From positions 62,001 to 126,000 of the forward strand of contig NZ_CP012369.1 of the NCBI RefSeq assembly GCF_001267405.1: a stretch of 64,000 nt of DNA, read 5' to 3'. The notes beneath the pieces were generated by a model. The model saw nothing but the letters and a program-made list of their open reading frames with translations. It searched no databases and had not been told where the DNA came from. The DNA comes from Moorella thermoacetica (GTDB lineage Bacteria; Bacillota; DSM-521; Neomoorellales; Neomoorellaceae). Of the stretch, positions 12,687-46,307 are shown piece by piece (position 1 is the first letter of the stretch; each line of letters starts with the position of its first letter). A program made the translations under genes and the position numbers.

Positions 12687-14069
12687 ATGGCAGATACAGT
12701 CGCCGTCATCCTGGCCGCTGGCCAGGGGAAGCGGATGCATTCCCGGCGACCAAAGGTATTACACCGTATTGCCGGTCGCTGCCTGGTGGAACATGTCCTG
12801 GCGGCAGTCGGGGAGGCCGGTATAAAAAAGCAGATCGTCGTCATCGGCCACGGGGCGGAAGAAGTTCGGGAGGCCCTGGGCCCGGAATATACCTATGTCC
12901 TACAGGAGCAGCAACTGGGCACCGGCCACGCCCTGGCCCGGGCCCGGGAAGCGGCTGGCACGGCAGCAACCGTGCTGGTGCTCTGCGGGGATACCCCCCT
13001 CCTCAGGCCGGCAACCTTGGCCCGGCTTCTAAAGGAGCACCGGGACAGGCAAGCTGCCGTTACTATTTTAACAGCCGTACTCGATGACCCTACCGGATAT
13101 GGCCGCATTATTCGCGACGGCCAGGGTATGGTTGCGGGGATTGTCGAAGAGCGGGACGCCAACCCGGTAGAGAAGGCTATCAGGGAGATCAATGCCGGCA
13201 TTTATTGTTTCGAAGCTGCTTACCTCTGGCCCTTTCTGGAACAATTACAGCCGAATAACGACCAGGGAGAGTACTACCTTACCGATGTGGTGGGCCTGGC
13301 CTGCCGGGAAAACCTGCCCGTCCAGGCTGTAGCCGCCGGCGATCCGGAAGAGATCCTGGGGGTTAATGACCGGGCTCAGCTGGCCAAAGCCGGGGCTATT
13401 TTAAGACGCCGGATAAACATGGGCCTGATGCAAGCCGGGGTAACCATTATAGACCCGGAAACTACTTATATCGATGCCACCGTCAGGATCGGCCCGGACA
13501 CCATTATTTATCCCGGCACCTTTTTAGAAGGGAATACTATTATTGAGGAGGGATGCTCCCTTGGCCCGGGAACTACCCTCCGGGACTGCCAGGTAGGTAA
13601 GGGCAGCCATGTTATCCATACCGTGGCCCTGGAGAGTGAAATAGGCCCTGGTTGCCAGGTAGGTCCCTTTGCCTACCTGCGTCCCGGGACGGTCCTGGAT
13701 GCCAGGGTCAAGGTTGGGGATTTCGTAGAGATCAAGGCCTCCCGGATTGGGGCTGGCTCCAAAGTACCTCACCTGACCTACCTAGGTGATACCACGGTGG
13801 GTACCGGGGTGAATATCGGCGCCGGGACCATTACCTGTAATTACGACGGTGAGAAGAAGTGGCCGACGGTCATTGAGGATGGAGCCTTTATCGGTAGTAA
13901 TAGCAACCTGGTTGCTCCCGTCCGGGTAGGGGCCGGAGCCCTGGTGGGGGCCGGGTCTACCATAACGGAAGATGTACCCGCCGGTTCTATGGCCCTGGCC
14001 CGGGGAAGGCAGGTAAACTTATCCGGCCGCAGTAAAAAAAGTAGCGAAAAAAGGCAGGAAAAAGGTTAA
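12687..14069 (+). CDS. glmU: Bifunctional UDP-GlcNAc pyrophosphorylase / GlcN-1-P acetyltransferase
   Basis: 460 residues, ATG with GGGAGGAG upstream. The N-terminal uridyltransferase half carries [33 protein letters not shown] and EINAGIY. The C-terminal half is a left-handed beta helix of hexapeptide repeats ([15 protein letters not shown]..., [35 protein letters not shown]) with the acetyl-CoA site. It makes UDP-GlcNAc for peptidoglycan. The length is normal. The next gene, prs, is on the same strand; the glmU-prs pairing is conserved in Firmicutes. Confidence 0.97.
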
Positions 14070-14131
14070 TCAGGGCGAAATAGATAGAGTTAAACCTTTC
14101 CCCGGTAAACTTGGAGGTTATAAAAAAGCAA

Positions 14132-24689: not shown

Positions 24690-24770
24690 CTGGAAATGCA
24701 GGAGATTGTTGGATTATAGCGAATACATGACGACAGGGGCAAATGTCACAGCAGGAGGGATTGAGTAAGG

Positions 24771-27182: not shown

Positions 27183-27244
27183 TTTATTTACCCCGGCTGG
27201 CAGGATTCCCCTCCCTGGCGGCGAATTATATACTTGTCCAATAG

Positions 27245-29861: not shown

Positions 29862-29917
29862 GCCGGGAGGAAATACCCGCCCGGCGGCGAATTTATTCCC
29901 GGGAAAGGAGAAGGAAT

Positions 29918-39459: not shown

Positions 39460-39561
39460 AGGCATTTAATTCAGGAAAAACTCCCCAAAAGAAAGCAGGA
39501 AAAAGGCTCTTAACGACGAAATAAGGAACTCAGGAGCCAAAACTACGGAGGAATGGGCCAG

Positions 39562-43484: not shown

Positions 43485-43994
43485 ATGAAAACCAAGGAAC
43501 GGCGGCAAAAAATCCTGGAACTCCTGGATAACAACCTCCCCCAGAAGGGAACCGACCTGGCTGCTGCCCTGGGCGTCAGCCGCCAGGTAATCGTCCAGGA
43601 CATCGCTGTCCTCCGGGCCGCGGGTGTCAATATCCTGGCTACCCCCCAGGGTTATCTCCTCCCCGGGCGGGAGAATTTATGCAGGCGTACCTTTGCCTGC
43701 CGGCACGACCTGGCTGGTCTGGAGCAAGAGCTTCTCCTGATGGTTGATTACGGCGGCAAGGTGATAGATGTAATCGTTGAGCATCCCCTCTACGGCGAGA
43801 TCCGGGGTTACCTGATGCTCTCCTCTCGTTACGAGGTGCGCAAATTTGTCACCGACCTGAAGGCCAGCGATGCGCGGCCCCTGTATACCCTCACCGGTAA
43901 CGGGGTGCACCTGCATACGGTGGAAGCCAGCCGGCAGGAACTTTTAGATACCATAGAAGACAGGCTGGCCCGGGCCGGTTTTCTCCTTAAATGA
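43485..43994 (+). CDS. niaR: NiaR-type transcriptional regulator (HTH_11 + 3H domain)
   Basis: 169 residues from ATG 43485. N-terminal HTH_11 (RRQKILELLDNNLPQKGTDLAAALGVSRQVIVQDIAVLRAAG), then the 3H domain named for three histidines, here in FACRHDLAG, IVEHPLYGEIRG and GNGVHLHTVEA. NiaR represses NAD synthesis and niacin transport genes when nicotinic acid is bound. No NAD gene is adjacent, so its targets lie elsewhere. Confidence 0.9.
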   Translation: MKTKERRQKILELLDNNLPQKGTDLAAALGVSRQVIVQDIAVLRAAGVNILATPQGYLLPGRENLCRRTFACRHDLAGLEQELLLMVDYGGKVIDVIVEHPLYGEIRGYLMLSSRYEVRKFVTDLKASDARPLYTLTGNGVHLHTVEASRQELLDTIEDRLARAGFLLK

Positions 43995-44012: not shown

Positions 44013-44459
44013 ATGCCGGGATTCCTGGAGTACACCCTTTACCTCAGCACCGATGATGTCCGCGTGGCCCATCACCTGGCCCGGATATTGAACCAGAAGG
44101 GTGGACGGGACGTTGTCGCCCGGGGACAGGAAAGTGAACGGGGGGCGGCGGTAGTGGTCCGGATTTTTGGCTGGCAGGAGTTTTCCCTGGTGCGTGTCCT
44201 CGAGACGGTCCGGGCTGGGGCCAGGAACTATAACGTCCAGGTTACCGGGGGAAACCTTAGTCCTGCACCGGTAGAAGCCCTCCTGGCAGTGGTTCAGCAT
44301 GCCCTCCTGCTTGATCGTTTACCTCTAATTGCCGGGGCTACTCCCCGGGAGCCTTTGCGAGAAGCCTCCGAGAAAGGCCGATGCCAGTACCGTTTAATGT
44401 TTGTTTATTTGTTATTATCATTTTTATACACGGCAAAAAATGTTGTTTGTTTTTTATGA
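44013..44459 (+). CDS. Hypothetical protein with a hydrophobic AT-rich tail
   Basis: 148 residues, ATG with AGGGGAGGG upstream. I do not recognise it. Residues 1-120 (PGFLEYTLYLSTDDVRVAHHLARILNQKGG...YNVQVTGGNL) look like a small soluble alpha/beta domain. The last 22 residues (MFVYLLLSFLYTAKNVVCFL) are suddenly hydrophobic and coded by AT-rich DNA, so the original stop may have been lost or the tail may be chance extension. It lies 18 bp after niaR and upstream of fhs. Confidence 0.55.
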   Translation: MPGFLEYTLYLSTDDVRVAHHLARILNQKGGRDVVARGQESERGAAVVVRIFGWQEFSLVRVLETVRAGARNYNVQVTGGNLSPAPVEALLAVVQHALLLDRLPLIAGATPREPLREASEKGRCQYRLMFVYLLLSFLYTAKNVVCFL

Positions 44460-44474
44460 TTACTGGTATATAAT
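44447..44474 (+). promoter_or_regulatory. Candidate upstream promoter of fhs
   Basis: TTGTTT (44447-44452), a 16-bp spacer and TATAAT (44469-44474) inside the AT-rich patch. The start site would be about 145 bp before the fhs start, with the Rex-like site downstream of it as a roadblock. Confidence 0.45.
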
Positions 44475-44556
44475 AATGAATAGTCACCTGGTAGACTATA
44501 AAGAAACAAAAAATTTAATATTCAATTTACAACTGCACAAGCAGGAAAACCGAACT

Positions 44557-44574
44557 TTGTGTAGAACTTCACAA
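44557..44574 (+). promoter_or_regulatory. Rex-type redox operator upstream of fhs
   Basis: The 18-bp TTGTGTAGAACTTCACAA matches the Rex consensus TTGTGAA-N4-TTCACAA at 13 of 14 fixed positions. It lies 53 bp before the fhs start. Rex represses genes when NAD+ is high relative to NADH. No rex gene is in the window. Confidence 0.65.
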
Positions 44575-44627
44575 TATGTGACGTGCAACCGGATGTTCAC
44601 TTTTTCGAATGAGAGGAGTGGATTACA

Positions 44628-46307
44628 TTGTCCAAGGTACCCAGTGATATTGAGATTGCCCAGGCAGCCAAAATGAAACCGGTCATGGAACTGGCCCGGG
44701 GACTGGGCATCCAAGAGGACGAGGTCGAGCTTTATGGTAAGTACAAGGCCAAGATCTCCCTCGATGTCTATCGTCGCCTCAAAGACAAGCCTGACGGGAA
44801 ACTAATCCTGGTAACCGCCATTACCCCTACTCCGGCCGGCGAAGGGAAAACTACTACCAGTGTCGGTCTCACCGATGCCCTGGCTCGCCTGGGGAAAAGG
44901 GTGATGGTCTGCCTGCGGGAGCCCTCCCTGGGACCCAGCTTTGGTATCAAAGGCGGTGCCGCCGGCGGTGGTTATGCCCAGGTAGTACCCATGGAAGATA
45001 TCAACCTGCACTTCACCGGCGATATCCACGCCGTCACCTATGCCCACAACCTGCTGGCGGCCATGGTGGATAACCACCTGCAGCAGGGTAACGTCCTGAA
45101 TATTGATCCCCGTACCATCACCTGGCGCCGGGTCATCGACCTTAATGACCGGGCTCTGAGGAACATAGTCATCGGCCTGGGTGGCAAAGCCAACGGCGTA
45201 CCGCGGGAGACAGGGTTTGACATCTCCGTTGCCTCGGAGGTTATGGCCTGCCTGTGCCTGGCCAGCGACCTCATGGATCTCAAGGAACGTTTCAGCCGCA
45301 TTGTTGTCGGCTACACCTATGACGGCAAACCGGTCACCGCCGGCGATCTGGAGGCCCAGGGTTCCATGGCTCTTCTCATGAAGGACGCCATTAAACCCAA
45401 CCTGGTCCAAACCCTGGAGAATACGCCGGCCTTTATCCACGGTGGTCCCTTCGCCAATATCGCCCACGGTTGCAACAGCATTATCGCAACCAAGACGGCC
45501 CTGAAACTGGCGGATTATGTCGTGACGGAAGCCGGTTTCGGTGCCGACCTGGGTGCCGAGAAGTTCTATGACGTTAAATGCCGTTATGCCGGCTTTAAAC
45601 CCGATGCCACAGTCATCGTGGCTACCGTCCGCGCCCTCAAGATGCACGGCGGCGTACCCAAATCAGACCTGGCCACTGAAAACCTGGAAGCCCTGCGGGA
45701 AGGCTTTGCCAACCTGGAGAAACACATCGAAAATATCGGCAAGTTCGGCGTACCGGCAGTCGTGGCCATCAATGCCTTCCCCACCGATACCGAGGCCGAG
45801 CTAAATCTCCTCTACGAGTTGTGCGCCAAAGCTGGGGCCGAAGTTGCCCTCTCGGAAGTCTGGGCTAAGGGCGGCGAAGGCGGTCTGGAACTTGCCCGGA
45901 AGGTGTTGCAGACCCTGGAGAGCAGGCCATCCAACTTCCATGTCCTCTACAACCTGGACCTGAGTATTAAAGACAAAATTGCCAAAATCGCCACCGAGAT
46001 CTACGGGGCCGACGGCGTCAACTATACGGCCGAAGCCGACAAAGCTATCCAGCGTTATGAATCCCTGGGCTACGGCAACCTGCCGGTGGTCATGGCCAAG
46101 ACCCAATACTCCTTTTCCGATGACATGACCAAGCTCGGGCGGCCGCGGAACTTTACCATCACCGTGCGCGAGGTGCGCCTCTCGGCCGGAGCAGGCTTTA
46201 TCGTCCCCATCACCGGCGCCATAATGACCATGCCCGGGCTGCCCAAACGCCCGGCGGCCTGCAACATCGACATCGATGCCGACGGCGTCATTACCGGTCT
46301 TTTCTAG
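44628..46307 (+). CDS. fhs: Formate-tetrahydrofolate ligase (formyl-THF synthetase)
   Basis: 559 residues from TTG 44628, with GAGGAG 10 bp upstream. This is the Wood-Ljungdahl methyl-branch enzyme that activates formate with ATP to 10-formyl-THF; the Moorella protein is the structural reference for the family. ATP-binding [15 protein letters not shown] (about residue 65), [26 protein letters not shown] and the C-terminal [15 protein letters not shown] and [14 protein letters not shown] are complete. It is a single-gene unit with an AT-rich upstream region, a Rex-type operator and a terminator. Other pathway genes are not adjacent, but folP follows. Confidence 0.99.

Follow-up and report, generated by a model that had tools for sequence, protein, structure and literature searches.

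A probable sigma-H-type promoter with a Rex-like palindrome on its -10 upstream of fhs in Moorella thermoacetica

Described promoters and operators

Little is known of how acetogens turn on carbon fixation. The closest described promoters are those of Sporomusa sphaeroides KIAC, where mapped starts give a SigH motif (AGGA/GAAT, 17-18 nt spacers) at Wood-Ljungdahl genes; in 2025, sigma-H control was also predicted for the Wood-Ljungdahl clusters of Moorella thermoacetica (PMC12456013). We have analyzed a stretch of 64,000 nucleotides of the M. thermoacetica genome that carries fhs (the window). The Moorella promoters resemble those of Sporomusa in having a -35 AGGA, a GAAT-type -10 and a 17-nt spacer before Wood-Ljungdahl genes. 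They differ in that fhs lies apart from the acs operon, the -10 is GAAC in the window and a palindrome, found in Moorellaceae only, sits on the -10. The Pcauto motif of Clostridium autoethanogenum (PMC6873888) is likewise a dedicated promoter type for acetogen autotrophy genes; it differs in being described as sigma-A-driven (PMC12456013) and activated by a TetR-family protein, a separation from the fhs element made at the level of description.

The palindrome invites comparison with operators of Rex. In the structure of T. maritima Rex on its operator, the protein reads G3 and A6 most specifically, through direct contacts (PMC8836258). The site before fhs is like a Rex operator in its length, its dyad spacing, 13 of 14 bases in this strain, its core-promoter position and the presence of rex genes, and unlike one in its T at position 6, the loss of the outer A in most relatives and the lack of a supporting regulon in this genome. 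The present analysis adds four points: fhs and acs have twin elements, the 17-nt spacing is fixed across many lineages, the palindrome overlaps the -10, and the T at position 6 speaks against a standard Rex site. This brings sequence support from many Clostridia to a sigma-H link that was put forward in 2025, chiefly on Sporomusa data: fhs and acs in Moorella would share one sigma-H-type promoter, and the remaining question is narrowed to the overlap of the 18-bp palindrome with the -10.

The conserved element before fhs and cooC-acs

The putatively regulated gene, fhs (formate--tetrahydrofolate ligase; NCBIfam NF010030, 959 bits), occupies 44628..46307 on the + strand and starts with TTG. The original prediction described an 18-bp site that agrees with TTGTGAA-N4-TTCACAA in 13 of its 14 fixed positions and lies 53 bp before fhs, and read this site as a Rex-type operator. 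The match itself was confirmed: the palindrome TTGTGTAGAACTTCACAA lies at 44557-44574 (+), with 53 bp between its end and the TTG at 44628. Its sole mismatch is a T for A at half-site position 6 of the left half, the right half being intact. In the window, it is the only match to the Rex consensus with up to 3 mismatches, against a mean of 1.06 in shuffled sequences; Markov simulation gave 0.12 matches per window at up to 2 mismatches, and 60 simulated windows contained no match with 1 or fewer. The palindrome is also the only site in the whole genome with up to 1 mismatch. Since the reversed control pattern yields one such site as well, the match taken by itself does not exceed chance genome-wide. 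The weight of the palindrome comes from its position and conservation, not from its match score.

The conserved block is larger than the palindrome. An alignment of 10 Moorella fhs upstream regions revealed the block AGCAGGAAA-N7-TTTGTGTAGAATTTCAC; in the window it reads GCAGGAAAA-N7-TTTGTGTAGAANTTCAC, with the core AGGA-N17-GAA(T/C). The -35 region GCAGGAAAA spans 44541..44549 (+), and its GCAGGA is invariant in 23/23 Moorellaceae fhs and acs promoters. The -10 region GTAGAACTT (44561..44569, +), placed by alignment and column counts, fits the published SigH motif (PMC12456013). Its core, which lies inside the palindrome, is GAAC here and GAAT in most other Moorella fhs promoters. Upstream of fhs, AGGA-N17-GAA was present in 16/21 genomes of the order, with 0-1 at other spacings, and the core without the palindrome was found before distant fhs genes (~45-50% identical; G004, G008, G016 and G017), as in GAAGGAAATTTATAAAATATGGCGAATAAAT of G004. 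The relatives were represented by one genome per species, and the short-promoter alignments across 22 genomes are small. By its layout, AGGA-N17-GAA(T/C) before fhs is a candidate sigma-H-type promoter, which we have named P2.

A matching element, missed by the original prediction, precedes the acs operon too. This near-identical twin lies before cooC-acs at G000:C1:1137731-1137762, on the minus strand (L005, L095). The AcsB encoded in this genome shares 98% identity with the AcsB of M. thermoacetica DSM 21394, in keeping with a Moorella. We have searched 22 genomes of the order, plus a control, for the element with up to 3 mismatches. Moorella genomes carried it before fhs and cooC-acsA, one of them (G009) with a single weaker third match, and three related genomes carried it before cooC-acsA. 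The form GCAGGANA-N7-TTTGTGTAGAANTTCAC occurred in well-assembled Moorella genomes once before fhs and once before cooC-acs, and 0 times in the control. Among 45 non-redundant clostridial cooC-acs loci, which include Desulfosporosinus, Thermincola, Peptococcaceae and others, 27 had AGGA-N17-GAA, while spacing 18 was seen in 8 and other spacings in 0-4 (binomial p ~2e-25 for the peak at 17). Judged from the sequence, both Wood-Ljungdahl branches thus carry the element, one at fhs and the other at cooC-acs. The fhs and acs promoter-leader regions of three other Moorella align over 71-87 bp at 78-82%, and the similarity running on through the leader is suggestive of a copied promoter cassette.

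Further along the leader, GTTCACTTTTTCGAA with its flank (44592..44607, +) is common to the acs leader at an equal 22-nt distance. A piece like GTNCATTTTTNCGAA stands 22 nt 3' of TTCAC in fhs and acs leaders (window 44592-44607; L088, L090 and L092), and an AAAAATG...CATTTTT dyad can be formed in some of the acs leaders. Divergent from the acs operon, we have observed a PocR-domain reading frame (L005 2014-3018), split here over two adjacent ORFs by a possible frameshift. As a regulator of acs and fhs it was rejected, since it is not kept beside acs in other Moorella.

Sigma-H and the proposed promoter P2

The genome contains a sigH gene (TIGR02859, 378 bits vs. a cut-off of 294.8). Genome-wide, 22/30 AGGA-N17-GAAT sites were intergenic, compared with 6/24 at the control spacing of 19 (p = 0.0008). 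Such sites precede genes whose protein sequences read as spoVS, a minC-like gene and mreB/mbl, typical targets of sigma-H, as well as pnp and folE. Directly visible in the sequence are the motif with its fixed spacing and conservation, the acs twin and the sigH gene.

We consider it probable that P2, the conserved block before fhs, functions as a core promoter of the sigma-H type, with the Rex-like palindrome superimposed on its -10. P2 would have its -35 AGGA at 44543-44546 and its -10 GAAC at 44564-44567, 17 nt apart, with a predicted start near 44574-44578; the palindrome covers the -10 and would extend to about this start. We infer that sigma-H RNA polymerase would read fhs from P2, and the cooC-acsA-acsB operon from the twin element, the two Wood-Ljungdahl branches thereby sharing one promoter type. 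The palindrome would be partly a consequence of the promoter sequence, and the arms TTGT and CAC.A a Moorellaceae-specific addition. These arms would either have arisen incidentally or form a weak operator at which a dimeric repressor blocks the -10.

Against P2 as a sigma-H promoter stands the -10 of the window, GAAC, which is one base off GAAT. There is also a tension in that the classical role of sigma-H lies in the transition state and sporulation, whereas fhs must be strongly expressed in growth. Growth expression may be served by a possible promoter further upstream, P1 (TTGTTT-N16-TATAAT, 44447..44474, +), read from the sequence and the alignment and conserved in Moorella, which did not pass a consensus promoter scan. 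P1 is likely of the sigma-A type; together with P2, fhs would then have two promoters in tandem, one for sigma-A and one for sigma-H.

The conserved TTTGTG of the spacer and the TTCAC 3' of the -10 go beyond what the core promoter by itself requires, hence something more may be selected there. One tentative extension, which we regard as somewhat doubtful, is that in Moorellaceae a dimeric repressor, be it Rex or a new regulator, covers the -10 of the twin sigma-H promoters and gates both Wood-Ljungdahl branches. If so, gating would be joint: carbon fixation would depend on the transition-state sigma factor and, in addition, on a signal from redox state or a metabolite.

Other intergenic sigma-H-like sites were seen in the window at 14054-14080, 24698-24724, 27200-27226, 29866-29892 and 39495-39521. 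The genes 3' of them read as prs, HU, a small HTH protein with a divIC-like gene, a ubiD-like gene and tilS. These further sites suggest a putatively broad sigma-H-like regulon.

The palindrome over the -10

The original prediction would fall in a genome without rex; two rex genes were found (NCBIfam Rex, 333 and 269 bits), with 42% identity between them. One lies in a folC-like operon and the other adjoins a mltG-like gene (neighbors named by reading the proteins), and both products have a recognition helix with the RK pair, like the Rex proteins of Thermus and Thermotoga. Were the palindrome a working Rex operator, Rex with NAD+ would sit on the -10 and repress fhs (and acs), and a high NADH/NAD+ ratio would release it. 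The 13/14 match in the window and the two RK-type Rex proteins are consistent with this, as are the arms conserved at Moorellaceae fhs and acs promoters and the finding that all palindrome-bearing genomes have rex, two rex-less genomes being without the palindrome. Rex-like motifs occur at fdh and other clusters in Calderihabitans, a related genus (PMC7306483), and, as far as that article's citation of Zhang 2014 goes, Wood-Ljungdahl enzymes of Clostridium are reported to be under Rex. The quality of the site argues in the other direction. The left position 6 is T in 20/20 Moorella fhs and acs promoters, where Moorella hyd operons keep A, so that these promoters do not keep G3 and A6 in both halves (the left A6 is lost), and this A is read directly by T. 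maritima Rex (PMC8836258). The match drops to 11-12/14 in 21/23 Moorellaceae fhs/acs promoters; this drop is seen outside M. thermoacetica and one other species. The genome-wide scan for the Rex consensus gave no second site with up to 1 mismatch to lend support, and an alternative consensus, TTGTNAA-N4-TTNACAA, was discarded for want of enrichment (5 matches vs. 5 in the control). Moreover, deep relatives carry the promoter without the palindrome, and the genes reported as changed by rexA deletion in T. kivui are ldh, pfor2, gcv and others, with fhs unmentioned (PMC12044746). We therefore judge a working Rex operator unlikely. What holds of the Rex-type operator claim is the pair of rex genes and the conservation of the block in 10/10 Moorella fhs promoters; this block appears to be chiefly a sigma-H-type promoter, and the good match of this strain gives way in most relatives to a poorer one with a constant mismatch on a base that Rex reads. 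The Rex reading of the fhs site is weak, with Rex control a possible one.

The same site could instead serve another dimeric regulator specific to the Wood-Ljungdahl genes, binding TTGTG-N8-CACNA over the -10, for example one of the CRP/FNR type (TGTGA-N6-TCACA). In the 18 family genomes scanned, the exact TTGTGNNGAANTTCACNA was confined to the regions upstream of fhs and cooC-acs, and position 6 is constant yet not Rex-like. In the fhs promoter of the closest relative, G014 (L096), TTATG...CATAA replaces TTGTG...CACAA, both arms being altered symmetrically, which would fit a dimeric binder and is at odds with a palindrome that nothing binds. No candidate regulator was found in a search that lay outside the CRP/FNR genes, and the PocR-domain frame beside acs is not conserved. 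Likewise, the outgroup acs promoter L145 carries TTTGTGT but no 3' arm, and the 5' arm may thus predate the palindrome. We rate such a regulator as improbable, to the same degree as Rex. About an even chance can be given to the view that nothing binds: the palindrome would be a by-product of dyad-like flanks of the sigma-H -10, shared by fhs and acs as a copied promoter cassette. The -10 itself accounts for G5, A7, T12 and T13 of the dyad, the ~80% alignment of the fhs and acs regions in several Moorella is consistent with duplication, and there is no palindrome beyond Moorellaceae. Within the family, its conservation is mixed: the arms are kept in Moorella, but the outer bases are degraded in the relatives, most sites ending in CACTA, and at fhs the palindrome is absent outside the genus. 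Against a mere by-product, TTGT and CAC.A are retained at Moorellaceae fhs and acs promoters while the adjoining spacer and leader bases vary, including at the acs promoters of Thermanaeromonas and genus g7. A role as an RNA hairpin or riboswitch part of the fhs leader is very improbable. The palindrome would be transcribed if the upstream P1 were used, but the stem has five pairs and is AT-rich in a thermophile, leader folding was no better than that of shuffles (z 0.13, -0.68 and -0.62), and the region had no Rfam match up to E = 5, the tetrahydrofolate riboswitch type included.

A better Rex-like site was found elsewhere in the genus. In eight Moorella genomes, TTGTGAA-N4-TTCACCA lies ~35 nt before an operon whose genes read as DRTGG, HATPase, ferredoxin-like and NuoE-like (L220 near 1501-1518; also L218, L219, L221, L223, L224, L230 and L231). 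The operon so led is probably the HydABC hydrogenase. Its site belongs to the same palindrome class as that of fhs and differs in having A6 in both halves and a -10 that is not the sigma-H GAAT. In the genome studied here, the hydrogenase operon was not found in 60 kb at the place suggested by synteny, and its Rex-like site is known from the other Moorella.

In G014, with the TTATG...CATAA palindrome at fhs, only one rex gene was seen. Two genes upstream of fhs, 43485-43994 encodes an HTH_11 plus 3H-domain regulator, which is NiaR-like, a niacin/NAD-type repressor by domain.
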